Origin: Candidatus Neomarinimicrobiota bacterium
Lineage (GTDB): Bacteria; Fidelibacterota; UBA2242; B5-G15
Direction: 5' to 3'
Assembly (NCBI GenBank): GCA_017656425.1
Contig: JACDNV010000027.1
Location: 1-19,050 of the forward strand
DNA length: 19,050 nt
The position numbers were made by a program, and so were the translations under genes. Below are positions 1-17,462 of the stretch, one piece after another (the first letter of the stretch is position 1; every line of letters begins with the position of its first letter). The notes beneath the pieces are model-generated. The model had not been told where the DNA came from. It did not search any database and saw only the letters and a list, made by a program, of their open reading frames with translations.

Positions 1-4
1 TCTT

Positions 5-68
5 AGCCATCTAGCTATCTCGCTATCTAGCCGTCTAGCCATCCAGCCATCCAGCAATCTCGCCATCT
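5..68. repeat. Octanucleotide array 1 (B-type units only)
   Basis: Eight consecutive 8-nt units of the form AGCYATCY (for example AGCCATCT, AGCTATCT, CGCTATCT) run without a phase break. The window starts inside this array, so an A-type half may lie to the left. It runs into CAATCGGATGAG and then a MITE-like right arm, the same order as at the end of array 2. Confidence 0.85.
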
Positions 69-969: not shown

Positions 970-2148
970 TTACCGTACAACAAACCCAATCATGTCTAAA
1001 TAATCATTTACCGTTAATATTAATAATTTTCTCTTTGCAGGATATTTCTCAAAAAAATCCTTCTGTTTATCTTCCATATTTCTTCCATATTTTACTTCCA
1101 GTATGGTATCATCCCAGTAAAAATCAATCTCAATTCCATCCTGATATATGTAAAAAGGTTGTTTTTCTTTAATTGACAGATATACAAGATTTTCAAAAAT
1201 CGCTCCTTTATCCCTGAATCCATTAAAAAGATTTCTAATACCAACATCAGCCGCATAAATCTTCCGGGGAGATTTAATTCTTTCATTTAATTTACCTTTA
1301 CGTTCGACAAGATGTATCAGGTAAGTCTTGCGAAAGTACTCAAGATACCTCCTTGCTGTATCCGGAGAAATATCAAGAATCCTTGCAATCTTATTAATAC
1401 TTACCAGTTTCCCGACTCTTTCCATAATCAACCTGCAAAAATCTTTTACCATACCTACATCTCGAATTCCAAATGCAGAGACTATGTCCTTATAAATAAC
1501 ACTCTCAATTAAGTTATCAAGATAATTGATATCACCTGTTAAAACATACTCAGGGATTCCACCATTTTTCATATATTCTTCAAAATACGACTCCAGCAGA
1601 TAGGTTTGTGATCTTTTAATGGTTATACTTTTAAATTGCAAATACTCACGAAAATCAAGGGGCATGATTTCTATTAGTCGTGCTCTTCCTGTCAACATAG
1701 CTCTGGTATCATTTAGTATTGTCGCCGAAGAGGAAGAGGCAAAAATCTTTACATTTTCCGAATCATAAAGATTTTTTAATTCCTGATGGATATTTGTTCG
1801 ACACCCTGCCTCATCAAAAAAAACGTACACCTTTTGCTCAAGTGGAATTTTGAAAATCTTACGATACTCCCTCAATATTTCCATAGTGGAAAACGGTTCT
1901 AAGGGGATTGAATCCAAGGAAACGTAGAGGATGTGCTCAGGTTTAACATCTTTAAGTAATCTAGAAATCATAAGTTTCATAATAGAGGTTTTGCCGACTT
2001 TTCTTAATCCTGTTATCAGGATTATATCTCTATTCTTCAAATCACTTTCTAAATAGCGAATATATTTTTCTCTTGGAATAAGAGATAGTGAATATTCACC
2101 CTCCCACCATGGATTATATTTGAACAACTCCTCTGATATGTTAATCAT
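970..2148 (-). CDS. AAA-type ATPase with C-terminal DUF4143 domain
   Basis: About 392 residues. The N-terminal half is a P-loop ATPase: Walker A GLRKVGKTS near residues 47-55 and a hydrophobic strand ending FFDEAG (Walker B) near 110. A winged-helix-like segment (SINKIARILDISPDTARRYL) sits in the middle. The C-terminal part matches the DUF4143 nuclease-like fold, including EIDFYW and ILEVKYG. The family is widespread in bacteria and archaea, usually as solitary genes, with no settled function. A TTG-initiated form (2160) adds four residues; I prefer the ATG at 2148 because the upstream sequence is operator-like. No strong Shine-Dalgarno is visible. It has its own promoter, is convergent with the coiled-coil gene, and is not obviously linked to polysaccharide synthesis. 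Autoregulation is suggested by the repeated motif over the promoter. Confidence 0.9.
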   Translation of the reverse strand: MINISEELFKYNPWWEGEYSLSLIPREKYIRYLESDLKNRDIILITGLRKVGKTSIMKLMISRLLKDVKPEHILYVSLDSIPLEPFSTMEILREYRKIFKIPLEQKVYVFFDEAGCRTNIHQELKNLYDSENVKIFASSSSATILNDTRAMLTGRARLIEIMPLDFREYLQFKSITIKRSQTYLLESYFEEYMKNGGIPEYVLTGDINYLDNLIESVIYKDIVSAFGIRDVGMVKDFCRLIMERVGKLVSINKIARILDISPDTARRYLEYFRKTYLIHLVERKGKLNERIKSPRKIYAADVGIRNLFNGFRDKGAIFENLVYLSIKEKQPFYIYQDGIEIDFYWDDTILEVKYGRNMEDKQKDFFEKYPAKRKLLILTVNDYLDMIGFVVR

Positions 2149-2149
2149 T

Positions 2150-2200
2150 TTATACGACAAACTCGCTCATATCGTATAAATATCGACAATATTATACGAT
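2150..2200. promoter_or_regulatory. Three evenly spaced TTATACGAY operator-like motifs
   Basis: TTATACGAC at 2150-2158, its reverse-complement form ATCGTATAA at 2171-2179, and TTATACGAT at 2192-2200 have starts exactly 21 bp apart, about two helical turns. The last two form a perfect 9-bp inverted repeat. The first touches the ATPase start codon and the third overlaps the promoter -10. This looks like a repressor-binding cluster; the binding protein is unknown. Confidence 0.6.
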
Positions 2201-2219: not shown

Positions 2220-2231
2220 CAAATTTTTGTT

Positions 2232-2391
2232 AGCCTGATAGCCTGACAGCCAGTTGGCCAGTTAGCTTGTTATCCTGACAGCTAGTTAGCTCGATAGCTT
2301 GATAGCTTGACAGCCAGTTAGACCATTTACCTCTCAGCCATCCAGCTATTTCGCAATCTATCTATCTAGCCATCCAGCCATCTCGCCATCT
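2232..2391. repeat. Octanucleotide array 2 (A-spacer-B)
   Basis: Eleven A-type units (AGCYNGWY, for example AGCCTGAT, AGCTTGAC, AGCCAGTT) at 2232-2319 are followed by the 16-nt spacer AGACCATTTACCTCTC at 2320-2335, which is itself two octamers long. Seven B-type units (AGCYATCY) follow at 2336-2391. The 8-nt phase holds throughout. The right MITE arm begins 9 bp later. Confidence 0.85.
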
Positions 2392-2650: not shown

Positions 2651-2806
2651 AGCGTGTTAGCTTGTTAGCCTGTTGGCTTGATAGCCAGTTAGCTTGATAG
2701 CTCGTTAGCTTGTTAGCTTGTTAGCCAGTTAGCTTGACAGCCTGTTAGACCATTTACCTCTTAGCCATCTCGCTATCTAGCTATCTAGCCATCTAGCCAC
2801 CCAGCC
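2651..2806. repeat. Octanucleotide array 3 (A-spacer-B), running into a coding end
   Basis: Twelve A-type units at 2651-2746, the 16-nt spacer AGACCATTTACCTCTT at 2747-2762, and five B-type units plus a half unit to 2806. The B part overlaps the end of the four-helix-bundle gene, so the last residues of that protein (WLDG) and its stop codon are encoded by repeat sequence. Confidence 0.85.
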
Positions 2807-3153
2807 TCTTTCACCCTCTTATAGAAACTCCACAACCTCTTACTCAACTCATTCTTAAGAAATTCAAGCTCCTTAAAATCACTATTTTTAATGTAACCAA
2901 GCCTAAGGGAAAAATCTATAAGGTACTCTGCCTCAGCTAATGAACCGATTGCTATATTTACAAATCTCGCAAGCTCCCTATCACCCTTCCTTGAATAACC
3001 TTCAACAATATTTAATGGAACCGATAATGCCGCTCTTCTCAATTGAGATGTAATCCCAAAAATTTCATGCTTTGGAAATAACCTGGTTATACTGTACACT
3101 TCAAAAGCAAACTTATCAGCTAACTCCCAGACTTTAAGACTTTTATAGTTCAT
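2785..3153 (-). CDS. Four-helix-bundle protein (23S rRNA intervening-sequence family)
   Basis: 122 residues, the usual length of this family. Conserved blocks are present: YKSLKVWELADKFAFEVY at the start, then LRRAALSVPLNIVEGYSRK near residues 38-56, and LAEAEYLIDFSLRLGY near 73-88. Homologues were first noticed as ORFs in intervening sequences of 23S rRNA genes and form small helical oligomers; their role is not established. No rRNA surrounds this copy. The ATG lies only 3 nt from octanucleotide array 4, with no recognisable Shine-Dalgarno, and the stop lies inside array 3, so the gene sits directly between two repeat arrays. It would be the last gene of the leftward transcript before the terminator at 2616-2642. 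A decayed relative lies at 6345-6618. Confidence 0.9.
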   Translation of the reverse strand: MNYKSLKVWELADKFAFEVYSITRLFPKHEIFGITSQLRRAALSVPLNIVEGYSRKGDRELARFVNIAIGSLAEAEYLIDFSLRLGYIKNSDFKELEFLKNELSKRLWSFYKRVKEAGWLDG

Positions 3154-3156
3154 TTT

Positions 3157-3391
3157 GGCCTATTGGCTTGTTAGCCAGTTAGCCTGTTAGCTTGATAGCT
3201 TGTTGGCCAGTTAGCTTGACAGCCTGTTAGCTGGTTAGCTCGATAGCTAGTTAGCTTAATAGCCTATTAGACTACCTCTTACCTCTTAGCCACCCAGCTA
3301 TTTAGCCATCAAGCCATCTCGCTATCTCGCTATCTAGCCGTCTAGCTATCCAGCTATCCAGCCATTTCGCCATCTAGCCATCCAGCCACAT
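3157..3391. repeat. Octanucleotide array 4 (A-spacer-B), the longest
   Basis: Fourteen A-type units at 3157-3268, a 19-nt spacer (AGACTACCTCTTACCTCTT) at 3269-3287, and thirteen B-type units at 3288-3391. The spacer resembles that of arrays 2 and 3 but is 3 nt longer, shifting the phase. One end lies 3 nt from the four-helix-bundle ATG; the other is adjacent to the stop codon of the sugar-transferase relic. Confidence 0.88.
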
Positions 3392-3580
3392 TCAGTACGC
3401 ATTCGGTACGCGGAAGGTTATCATCTGTAAAACGGTCTTGCCTATTATTTTCAGGTCAAGCAGGAAACTCCAGTTCTCGATATACCAGATGTCAAGCTCT
3501 GTGCGCTTTTTCATCAGCTTAAGGCTCTTAGCACTTCCACGGCACCCCACAAAGCTCACATCCACAACCCATATCGGCAT
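3392..3580 (-). pseudogene. C-terminal relic of a polyprenyl-phosphate sugar transferase
   Basis: The last 40 or so of 62 residues match the extreme C-terminus of bacterial sugar transferases: KKRTELDIWYIENWS, then LDLKIIGKTVL and a terminal AY. Compare VELDMYYIDHRSLWLDLKIL in the intact gene at 8335-8988. The catalytic core (KFRxM, SLDExPQ, LVGPR) is missing, so it cannot be active. The frame opens 3 nt after the gmhA stop with ATG, but the first 20 residues do not fit the family well and may be scrambled. Its stop codon is adjacent to array 4. It is probably the remains of a former last gene of the operon, removed by a deletion whose endpoints lie near the gmhA end. Confidence 0.7.
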
Positions 3581-10978: not shown

Positions 10979-11019
10979 TACATTTCCTCCTGTTTTTAAC
11001 TACCTTCATAAAGCTAATT

Positions 11020-12578
11020 AGTCGTTCCTAAAAAATTTGTTTTTAGAAGTTTATTAACTGATATGCTAAAACGGAAATGAAACCTTTATCTGAATTAACA
11101 ACTTCTTAGATTTCTCGCTCATGTTTCTCAGGACAAAAAATAAAAAATATAGCATAGCTGCGAAGAACCTTCTAATATTGTAGCCAAATGCACAGAGAAG
11201 AGCATTAATTCTATCTCTTTATTCTCCTTTGAGATAGTTCCTTCCCATACAGTTATCATGTTTTAAATGACTTATTATCGGTTCTATAGCTGACCTACGC
11301 TTCATATACATACACATCTAGCGACTTATCTTTCTATACGATTTCCCACGTCTGCTGATCTTTATCTCAATCTCTCCTTTATAATTGTGCCCTATATATC
11401 CCCTATCACAATATGCTTCACGAGGAGTCTTCCACGTCAATCGCTCTACCTGAGAAAATACCTATTCTAATGTATGTCCCTCATATGGATTTCCATGAAA
11501 GGCCAATATACCTATGATCCAGTTATCTCCTGAGGTTGAAACAATAATTACCTTATTGCTAAATTCATATCTTTTATGAACCTTATCCTTAGATATGTAT
11601 TCTACTTCTATGACATGAATCGAATAAATCTTATTTTTATCTCAGAGGGATCCTTTATACTATCTCTCTCCCGAACTAATAGTTGATATGCCAATTCTAT
11701 AAATCCTTTAACTCCTGATCTGGAACATCTACCTTACGGTGTATATCCCTTACTACCCTATCCAAATAAGTATTCAATTCCCCGGTCTCCTTACTGGCAC
11801 ACTTCATATGCTTTGCATAGAAATACCTACCCTGCTTGACTAAGGCTCTTTTACTCAAATGTTATAACTATGCCGAATTTTATACCTATCTTCTACGCCT
11901 CATTTACGAATTTCTCACGCATCTTGTGGTATAACTTTGTGTCTGTGGGATAGGTGATAGCCTTCTCTTATACCGTTGTATCAACATTAACCTTATTGAA
12001 ATGTCTAACCTTTATGAGTTCACAACTCATATACATCTGAATAATTACCTGTAACAATTTCTCTATACCTCGAGAACCTATCCTCCTACACCACTTTACC
12101 AAACTGGTAGGATCAATAGGATATTCATGTGTAAAATACTCATATCCAGTAAAATATTGCTAATCTCGATGGAATCTCTTCAAAATATGGATCTTCTATA
12201 AACTGTTCAACTACCGATTCTTCACTCTCGCTATATGTGTGTTTCAGATAGTATAAGACTACCATAAGTCTTATCGGCTTAGTCGACCTCCCCTTACCTT
12301 CCGAATAATACTTACCAAACTCATTTCCTCCCAAAGGAATGCCTTCGGCAAAAAAATGACCAATCGATTCTTTTTGCCAGCTTAACCAATGGATACTCTC
12401 TACCGAATATAACATCCAGGCATGATTGAAATAACTTAAGAGTTGAAGTATATTTTTTATTTAACATAAATCACCAGATTTTTTGATCATTTCTAATATT
12501 TCTGGTTATTTATGCAATAAATATCAAGATCTAAATACTTATATTTATAATATGTTAGAAAATATTTCAGGGAAGACT
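11020..12578 (-). mobile_element. IS5-like element, copy A (inactivated)
   Basis: About 1.56 kb bounded by inverted ends, AGTCGTTCC on the left and GGAAGACT on the right (consensus inward AGTCNTCCCTGAAA). It carries a broken DDE transposase gene on the minus strand. The left flank is AATT but the right flank is ATCT, so there is no clean 4-bp target duplication. Positions 11227-12505 are identical to 13997-15275 in copy B, while the outer parts differ. Confidence 0.85.
11130..12415 (-). pseudogene. IS5-family (DDE, DUF772-type) transposase, copy A
   Basis: The first 91 residues (12140-12415) form an open frame: WQKESIGHFFAEGIPLGGNEF, then TKPIRLMVVLYYLKHTYSES, the DUF772-like N-terminal domain. 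Beyond the first stop the rest of the family sequence is readable in pieces: HFNKVNVDTTV*EKAITYPTD (first Asp), AYCDRGYIGHNYKGE (second Asp), and MKRRSAIEPIISHLKHDN (Glu). At least five stops or frame changes interrupt it, for example where homologues have Gln or Glu. It cannot make an active transposase. The exact C-terminal end is uncertain because the 3' part diverges from copy B. Confidence 0.82.
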
Positions 12579-13778: not shown

Positions 13779-13790
13779 ATATTAATAATT

Positions 13791-15348
13791 AGTCGTCCCT
13801 GAAAAAATTGTTTTTAAAAGTTTATTGACTGATATGCTAAAACAGAAATGAAACCTTTACCTGAATGAACAATTTTCTGGATTTCTCGCTCATGTTTTTC
13901 AGGACAAAAAATAAAAATGTAGAAAAGCTACGAGGAACTTTCTAATATTGTAGCCAACTGCACTGAGAAGAGCATTAATTCTATCTCCTTCTTCACCTTT
14001 GAGATAGTTCCTTCCCATACAGTTATCATGTTTTAAATGACTTATTATCGGTTCTATAGCTGACCTACGCTTCATATACATACACATCTAGCGACTTATC
14101 TTTCTATACGATTTCCCACGTCTGCTGATCTTTATCTCAATCTCTCCTTTATAATTGTGCCCTATATATCCCCTATCACAATATGCTTCACGAGGAGTCT
14201 TCCACGTCAATCGCTCTACCTGAGAAAATACCTATTCTAATGTATGTCCCTCATATGGATTTCCATGAAAGGCCAATATACCTATGATCCAGTTATCTCC
14301 TGAGGTTGAAACAATAATTACCTTATTGCTAAATTCATATCTTTTATGAACCTTATCCTTAGATATGTATTCTACTTCTATGACATGAATCGAATAAATC
14401 TTATTTTTATCTCAGAGGGATCCTTTATACTATCTCTCTCCCGAACTAATAGTTGATATGCCAATTCTATAAATCCTTTAACTCCTGATCTGGAACATCT
14501 ACCTTACGGTGTATATCCCTTACTACCCTATCCAAATAAGTATTCAATTCCCCGGTCTCCTTACTGGCACACTTCATATGCTTTGCATAGAAATACCTAC
14601 CCTGCTTGACTAAGGCTCTTTTACTCAAATGTTATAACTATGCCGAATTTTATACCTATCTTCTACGCCTCATTTACGAATTTCTCACGCATCTTGTGGT
14701 ATAACTTTGTGTCTGTGGGATAGGTGATAGCCTTCTCTTATACCGTTGTATCAACATTAACCTTATTGAAATGTCTAACCTTTATGAGTTCACAACTCAT
14801 ATACATCTGAATAATTACCTGTAACAATTTCTCTATACCTCGAGAACCTATCCTCCTACACCACTTTACCAAACTGGTAGGATCAATAGGATATTCATGT
14901 GTAAAATACTCATATCCAGTAAAATATTGCTAATCTCGATGGAATCTCTTCAAAATATGGATCTTCTATAAACTGTTCAACTACCGATTCTTCACTCTCG
15001 CTATATGTGTGTTTCAGATAGTATAAGACTACCATAAGTCTTATCGGCTTAGTCGACCTCCCCTTACCTTCCGAATAATACTTACCAAACTCATTTCCTC
15101 CCAAAGGAATGCCTTCGGCAAAAAAATGACCAATCGATTCTTTTTGCCAGCTTAACCAATGGATACTCTCTACCGAATATAACATCCAGGCATGATTGAA
15201 ATAACTTAAGAGTTGAAGTATATTTTTTATTTAACATAAATCACCAGATTTTTTGATCATTTCTAATATTTCTGGTGGTTTATGCAATACATATCAAAAT
15301 GTAAATACTTATATTTATAATATGTTAGGAAATATTTCAGGGAAGACT
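13791..15348 (-). mobile_element. IS5-like element, copy B (inactivated), flanked by AATT
   Basis: About 1.56 kb with inverted ends AGTCGTCCCTGAAAAAATTG (left) and the complement of AGTCTTCCCTGAAATATTTC (right). AATT lies directly outside both ends (13787-13790 and 15349-15352), fitting a 4-bp target duplication. It sits in the same orientation as copy A and separates two GT2 genes that were probably adjacent. AATT also precedes the left end of copy A, so it could instead belong to the ends or reflect target preference. Confidence 0.87.
13899..15185 (-). pseudogene. IS5-family transposase, copy B
   Basis: Same broken gene as in copy A, with the same internal stops throughout the shared 1,279 bp. 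The N-terminal 91-residue frame (14910-15185) is identical. The C-terminal fragment (13899-14087) is open: MKRRSAIEPIISHLKHDNCMG, with the catalytic Glu, then GEEGDRINALLSAVGYNIRKFL. Copy B therefore preserves the 3' end of the gene better than copy A. No intact transposase of this family is present in the window. Confidence 0.85.
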
Positions 15349-16329: not shown

Positions 16330-17462
16330 CTATTTAAATTCATGTTCAAATTCAACTGGAATTTTGTATCCCAGCGATGAATATATATTCATTGTTGTAG
16401 AACTGAATGAACTCCTCAACAACCTTTTCGGACTTGATAGTGCTGTCGAATTATCTCGGCCAAATAACTTCTTCTTTGAAAGTTCTCATAAACCTCTCAG
16501 TATCCGTGTTACCTTTGTGATTAGAATAGGATGTGGTTACATGCTCTATCCCAAGAGTCAAATAGGCTTTCATGTAAGCCTGACTCGTAGGCTGACATTA
16601 ACTATCACTCATAAGATGAATTTCGTACGATCTGCTTACTTTATCACAACGAGTGGAAAAATCCTTTTCCAATGCTTCTATCCAATCTCCGGAAGTAATC
16701 CTACTTCCAAGTGCATAACCAATCAATCTCTTTGTGTACCAGTCAAGAATAATCACAAGATACAGCCATCCAAAACCATTAACATCAAACTTGGTCATAT
16801 CAGGCCCCCACCATTGATTCGGTCTGGTGGTTACAGGCTTTCTATATTCTTGCTTACGTTTAACTTTATACCTTTTCTGGAAAGCTAATAGATTATCTGA
16901 TTTTATCAAACGTTAAACTCGTTTGTTATTTACTCTAATATTATCCCTGTAATTAAGCCATGCCTATACTCTACGATAGCCAAAAAAATGATGACGAAGT
17001 TTTATTTCCTTGATTGAAGTAAGTATTAAATCGTCTTCAGCAAAAATTCTCGATTTGGGCTTTGTTTTGCTATCTGAAACTCTTTTTCTACGATAGTAAA
17101 TGCTCTGGGAATAACCAAGTGTTTTACATATTATAGTCAATGAATATCCCTCAGCCATTAATTGATCTATTATTTCTATGTTATCACCTGCATCTATATC
17201 ATCTCTAAGCTTATTTTAGTATCTCTATCTCAAGGGTCTTCCTACCTAAAATTCTCTCAAGTTCCGTAATTCTCGCTTTGTCTGCGTTAGCCTTTTCCCA
17301 TCTTGAGCCGATTGCAGATAATGCTTCGCTCCATCCAGAAACTTGTCTCTCCATCTATAAAACAGTATCTGTGAAAGTCAATATTTCCTGCAAATGTCCT
17401 GAATGCTGTTTTTCCCGCGTAAATCTTCCAAAATGATGTTGAATTTCTCTACTGTTGTCCAT
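16330..17462 (-). pseudogene. IS3-family element relic (orfA plus orfB, multiple stops)
   Basis: orfA begins at 17462 behind AGGAGAAGG and reads through a degraded helix-turn-helix part and a Leu-rich region ERILGRKTLEIEILK before stops near 17205. orfB continues: MAEGYSLTIICKTLGYSQSI at 17099-17158, HHFFGYRRV then a stop where relatives have Trp, then 16598-16909 with RPNQWWGPDMTKF (first Asp) and YLVIILDWYTKRLIGY (second Asp). The last part has NHKGNTDTERFMRTFKEEVI, a stop in place of Glu, and, after a frameshift, YSSLGYKIPVEFEHEF. The catalytic Glu region is present but the gene is dead. I could not place its terminal inverted repeats. It lies between the polymerase gene and the GT2 genes. 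Confidence 0.82.

Follow-up and report, generated by a model that had tools for sequence, protein, structure and literature searches.

The S23 gene in the stretch of DNA analysed here probably serves as the gene of a small mobile element of the hairpin type, organized as left arm array, S23 and right arm array. In such an element each arm is a tandem array of 7-8-nt units and the two are inverted relative to each other; those around this copy appear to have been enlarged into complete hairpins, copies of the solo elements found elsewhere in its genome. S23 (TIGR02436/PF05635, "23S rRNA-intervening sequence protein") was named after a few rRNA inserts; it is a widespread bacterial family whose structures have been solved and for which, to our knowledge, no function is known. 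The window, as the term is used below, is the whole stretch, an entire contig of 19,050 nt from a genome of 2.8 Mb.

The S23 gene of the window and its flanking arrays

The features concerned are the following, all on the minus strand.

3392-3580, minus strand: WcaJ-type sugar-transferase C-terminal relic (PF02397, TIGR03023), upstream neighbour
about 3157-3390, minus strand: upstream composite array, predicted rod fold z = -8.06, middle degenerate
2785-3153, minus strand: S23 / 23S_rRNA_IVP four-helix-bundle gene (PF05635, TIGR02436), 122 aa, ATG at 3153
about 2651-2808, minus strand: downstream composite array, overlapping the S23 stop codon, predicted rod fold z = -5.81
2744-2761, minus strand: middle motif AGAGGTAAATGGTCTAAC of the composite array, conserved
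2229-2391, minus strand: third composite array, gene-less, same family, predicted rod fold z = -5.37
970-2160, minus strand: AAA_14/DUF4143 ATPase gene (profile match), downstream neighbour past the third array
3-68, minus strand: array of the same family, truncated by the contig end

The product of the S23 gene matches PF05635 with 114 bits (E 4.8e-33) and TIGR02436 with 108.6 bits, and has 2gsc and 2rld as relatives in the PDB. The window gave no Rfam match and has no rRNA, and the neighbours of S23 are protein genes. The upstream open reading frame covers only positions 145-178 of the 179 of PF02397 and 405-453 of the 453 of TIGR03023; judged from its sequence, it is a sugar-transferase relic of which only the C-terminal 35-50 residues remain.

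On the minus strand, the relic stop (TGA, 3394-3392) is followed by an 8-mer array, the ATG at 3153, the S23 coding region and the second array. The upstream array begins right after the relic stop and ends 3-4 nt 5' of the ATG, as an earlier note on this DNA had described. The note's further claim that the gene has no ordinary leader also agrees with the sequence next to the ATG (...GGCTAACAAGCCAATAGGCCAAAATG), where the sole Shine-Dalgarno-like element is an AGG within the last array unit. At the other end, the final codons GAG GCT GGG TGG CTA GAT GGC TAG (EAGWLDG*) are array units; the stop codon and at least the residues WLDG of the tail therefore come from the array, again as had been claimed. 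The tail is unique among 25 aligned homologues, most of which were entered as the domain only, and is absent from the nearest paralogue in the genome (C23), which fits a tail encoded by the array.

The arrays of the window have Tandem Repeats Finder scores of 43-123; a repeat search groups them with the array at 2229-2391 as a single family, in register at 8-nt spacing. The two that flank S23 are direct copies of each other, each being internally inverted as well.

Composite arrays elsewhere in the genome

Each array of the window is composite and reads, in the gene sense, (GGCTAGAT)n - AGAGGTAAATGGTCTAAC - (AAGCTAAC)n, its two halves being approximately inverted versions of each other. On the gene-sense strand the three arrays listed with z values are predicted to fold into one long rod each (z = -5.8, -8.1 and -5.4 after rounding, in the order 2651-2808, 3157-3390, 2229-2391), whereas the plus strand of the 2651-2808 array, the sole one folded in this way, gave z -1.5. 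We set aside sense-strand folding as proof of a role in RNA, because the array copies share ancestry and solo copies occur in either orientation.

The motif AGAGGTAAATGGTCTAAC has seven exact or near copies in the genome, versus none in a reversed control. Composite arrays without an S23 gene were found in at least seven places (C2; two each at C4, C14 and C31), several of them 100-600 nt from the nearest open reading frame and in either orientation to genes. Abutment is therefore a feature of S23 sites rather than a property of the array family. The earlier suggestion that arrays grow until they reach coding sequence is contradicted by these distant copies, and the check for S23 genes beside other array copies, which the note had recommended, turned up none at the four sites named.

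Several further observations concern the arrays and their surroundings. The middle motif (2744-2761, 2317-2334, C2, C4, C14 and C31) resembles a minimal open reading frame with Shine-Dalgarno sequence, start, one codon and stop; the pattern AGAGG TAA RTG NNC TRA occurs in most copies, which are only a handful and all related. REP-like palindromic repeats (GATTGCCACGCTCGCTTACGCTCGCTCGCAATGACA) lie at 79-114, 751-900, 2398-2436 and 2425-2574 of the window, and such palindromes adjoin composite arrays both there and elsewhere in the genome. A coiled-coil gene of the LA_3696 family with a C-terminal hydrophobic helix (191-634) sits between the 8-mer array at 3-68 and a heptamer array of GTTCAACG (649-703), and two of its paralogues (L209, 11363-11756; L207, 13167-14056) adjoin composite arrays too. 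This gene is possibly a second cargo of array-armed elements, and its six matches in three genomes of the phylum are too few copies for a test. The window also holds a broken transposase-like locus in two near-identical direct copies (11015-12447 and 13786-15217) 2,770 nt apart as well as transposase-like fragments at 16598-17158.

Mirrored arms as a rule of the family

S23 genes were found in 117 of 199 sampled genomes of the phylum, often several in one genome and up to 27 matches per genome. For each locus, local alignment set the 220 nt upstream against the reverse-complemented 220 nt downstream; flanks from other S23 loci provided the null, and the threshold was p<=0.05. RNAduplex energies of whole flanks, tried as an arm test, were noisy and driven by GC content, and local alignment was used instead. 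Mirrored arms were detected at 75 of 97 loci of the phylum (77%; median p 0.016) and direct-orientation matches at 18, while mirrored flanks were seen at 30 of 350 control open reading frames in the same contigs (9%). A second set of 80 named contigs covered Desulfobacterota, candidate phyla, Verrucomicrobiota, Chloroflexota, Bacteroidota, Planctomycetota, Bacillota, Pseudomonadota, Acidobacteriota and others; here, 66 of 83 S23 domains had mirrored arms (80%) and 21 had direct matches. Both samples favour sequences that match the family model or the window protein well, and the loci are not fully independent. At the S23 locus of the window the mirrored-arm test gave p 0.005, yet the direct match was also strong.

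The arms have a median length of 35 nt and a unit period of mostly 7 or 8. Their polarity is constant, the upstream arm having G>C in the gene sense at 69 of 75 loci in the phylum and 59 of 66 in the named contigs. A full-text literature search, with subscription literature outside its scope, returned no earlier description of non-rRNA S23 genes with mirrored arrays; an S23 cassette with mirrored arms outside rRNA is apparently undescribed, and we regard its novelty as provisional.

S23 genes are also strongly oriented. Those lying between codirectional neighbours were in the sense orientation in ratios of 71:1 and 52:2 (together 123 of 126), above the 263:39 (263 of 302) of ordinary genes in the same contigs. 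Possible reasons for this bias are that S23 depends on a host promoter, that antisense insertions are purged, or that movement passes through an RNA step.

Evidence of movement

The genome of the window contains four S23 copies that are 96-98% identical over most of their length and have unrelated flanks. These units share exact ends (TTAAGCGC...ACAAGACG) and AATGCAG-type arms. One such unit has 33 matches in the genome, most of them gene-less; about 20-30 are solo units of 201 nt that have the same ends and arms, have a non-coding loop of 60 nt where S23 would be, and in many cases lie head to tail. At C7, the S23 copy is a 504-nt insert within a ferritin gene. With the 504 nt removed, the ferritin aligns without a gap to PDB ferritins across the junction, so the insertion occurred without target duplication. 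The copy at C11, as read from the sequence, follows the second codon of a putative sulfate adenylyltransferase-like frame. In another genome, G017, two S23 units are 97% identical over 727 nt, bounded by arms and placed in unrelated flanks. A further candidate pair of mobile S23 units (L110/L108) turned out to be simple orthology.

S23 is the only open reading frame of the defined 504-nt unit, which encodes no transposase. Profile searches of the window's genome identified no mobilising enzyme for the S23 units, and the reverse transcriptase profile PF00078 had no match there. In the genome G011 the family seems to be dying out: it has 16 weak PF05635 matches, and many of its S23 genes are degraded, each interrupted by several stops.

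The earlier note had proposed, as one option, that array, gene and array form a single transposing cassette. For the S23 family this proposal is supported by the mirrored arms in both samples, the four dispersed copies, the gene-less units, the ferritin insertion and the G017 pair. The window copy itself has no near-identical sibling that would point to recent movement, its nearest paralogue standing at 66% at the amino acid level; its membership in the cassette class would follow from its architecture and gene family.

Turnover of the arms

Arm sequences differ between loci, even between species at one site, while the two arms within a locus match. Four Flavobacterium species carry S23 between the same two genes, the S23 genes being 66-88% identical. 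In two of these loci (L146 and L170) S23 is 71% identical and the arms are unrelated, with AGTAGCTG as the unit in the former and AAAGGTTC in the latter; arm scores were 24 and 29 within each locus and 7-11 across. Among the 42 same-site pairs, the two arms of one locus matched better than arms from different loci in 34 (mean 18.8 versus 13.5), with a p of 1e-6 that is optimistic, as the pairs overlap and are not independent.

At one site, G017 (L111) carries the S23 segment in the opposite orientation to that in two related species (L105 and L075). The breakpoints fall in the arms: arms do recombine, and the inversion is a direct trace of recombination between them. On the transcript strand, G-U-compatible pairs were not in excess among the mismatches between arms (137 versus 121, and 80 versus 112, the latter in the wrong direction), so nothing indicates that RNA pairing on this strand keeps the arms matched.

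As a separate observation, many array unit types recur in G017 (L230-L249), among them GAAGTTG, CAGTCGA, GTCACGC, ATTCATC and GATTGATTT, forming mosaics in intergenic DNA.

A proposed mechanism

The S23 unit would be a mobile hairpin that is either non-autonomous or assisted by S23. Its folded arms may be recognized by shape rather than by sequence, and an enzyme acting in trans would cut and join without target duplication, with S23, the only open reading frame of the unit, perhaps assisting by binding folded nucleic acid. The arms would lengthen and drift by slippage and be re-matched by recombination or template switching between them. In the transcript, pairing of the arms may also give a stem for RNase III to cut, by analogy with the 23S rRNA inserts. 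Arrays would abut S23 because they are the ends of the element, a position from which they can provide the start context, the final codons and the stop. In the window, the S23 gene would be hemmed in at either end by the enlarged hairpin arms, which provide its tail and stop codon. Several points stand against the hairpin element: the window copy has no near-identical sibling, its flanking arrays copy each other directly where the family typically has a simple inverted pair, short-unit arrays without S23 are abundant in some of these genomes (266 in 400 kb of G017), and neither the unit itself nor the profile searches yielded a mobilising enzyme.

More tentatively, and with somewhat less than even confidence, we suggest that S23 across bacteria is the core of a class of mobile elements whose ends are set by mirror symmetry rather than by sequence. 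S23 or a partner in trans would recognize the folded arms, the arms would drift and arm-arm recombination would re-match them; the 23S rRNA inserts would be members that landed in rRNA. A gene that normally sits and travels between mirrored arms would give the family a concrete, testable role. Such a cassette would explain many short-repeat arrays beside genes and oddities of gene models such as array-encoded tails, link the rRNA inserts to a general element and provide an example of element ends in which symmetry alone is conserved.

Alternative explanations

An intervening sequence acting at the RNA level is the strongest competitor, although we consider it rather doubtful. S23 would be co-transcribed with its operon, the mirrored arms would pair and RNase III would cut the stem, freeing the S23 RNA and splitting the operon mRNA, and the arms would be conserved for this processing. 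The sense orientation of S23 within operons (123:3) and the strong folding of the three window arrays on the transcript strand are as expected, and the Coxiella 23S insert, which has terminal inverted repeats around an S23 open reading frame, is excised by RNase III (PMC4990558). However, the sense-strand G-U excess that this explanation predicts is absent, and solo composite arrays occur in either orientation to genes. Processing of the arms in RNA may still follow as a consequence of the arrangement.

It is less probable, and we think unlikely, that a REP-associated (RAYT/Y1) transposase moves the unit as a non-autonomous element, with hairpins in single-stranded DNA as its substrate. This would account for the hairpin ends and for the ferritin insertion without target duplication; REP-like palindromes stand beside several composite arrays, and the genome has one Y1_Tnp domain. 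That domain is single-copy, however, and lies in frame inside a methylase-like open reading frame, where it is possibly inactive, and no constant tetranucleotide was seen beside the insertions. The frame (L325 922-3051; C5 near 26438) has 700-800 aa and is bordered by repeat-like TGIPAC / TGISACEGRNDNTLKGTQTRMSV.

Ordinary microsatellite expansion, with S23 merely one gene among common intergenic short arrays, is already disfavoured and very improbable: 7-8-mer arrays are indeed abundant in G017 intergenic DNA (the 266 noted above have periods of 5-10) and the window's genome has solo arrays, but mirrored arms are specific to S23 (77% versus 9% of control open reading frames), the matched units on both sides turn over together and moved units have the arm as their outer boundary. 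Least probable of all is an integron-like cassette, in which a tyrosine recombinase would act on units starting G|TTRRRY and stored head to tail: solo units do lie head to tail, joined at ACG|TTAAGCGC, and most isolated copies have a G before them, but in the genome no integron integrase scored above the cut-off (best match 85.7 bits versus 265, in a draft assembly from which the gene could be missing), generic recombinases match in all 14 control genomes, no attC-like RYYYAAC partner was seen by eye in the right end, and the unit ends in G017 do not fit G|TT.

Comparison with known systems

REP/REPIN sequences, MITEs and Rickettsia-type palindromic elements are short dispersed hairpins without a transposase of their own. 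The gene-less units described here look like them, whereas the full S23 unit has a conserved gene in its loop and arm sequences that are not conserved between loci. The one Y1_Tnp domain relevant to a RAYT/REPIN comparison is the domain inside another open reading frame noted above. Unlike a classical IS or DDE transposon, the S23 unit has no transposase and no fixed terminal sequence, and its insertion into ferritin made no target-site duplication. An integron cassette differs in that the draft assembly of the window's genome has no integron integrase above the cut-off. The Avd protein of diversity-generating retroelements resembles PF05635 in sequence and structure (PMC10053308), but the window's genome has no reverse transcriptase and no template/variable repeat pair was seen. 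By the tests applied, the S23 unit is not a classical transposon, an integron cassette or a diversity-generating retroelement.

The TAACTGA heptamer arrays of Beggiatoaceae are intergenic, lie near start codons and sometimes overlap the ends of open reading frames (PMC4679880). They resemble the S23 arms as short-unit tandem arrays in such positions, but are direct repeats of one fixed unit, and that report mentions no association with S23.

The closest parallel is the intervening sequence of 23S rRNA in Coxiella, Leptospira and others, in which an S23 open reading frame lies between complementary termini and for which a selfish or mobile origin has been proposed (PMC4990558). Both have an S23 open reading frame (PF05635, TIGR02436) in the sense orientation within a transcribed locus, and stem-capable terminal inverted repeats, seen here at 75/97 and 66/83 S23 loci. 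In contrast to the rRNA inserts, the units described here lie in protein-gene operons and intergenic DNA, that of the window not being in a 23S rRNA helix; their arms are tandem arrays free to change sequence, and gene-less derivatives and recent movement are visible. The S23 unit works like a 23S rRNA intervening sequence, but by its location it is not one.
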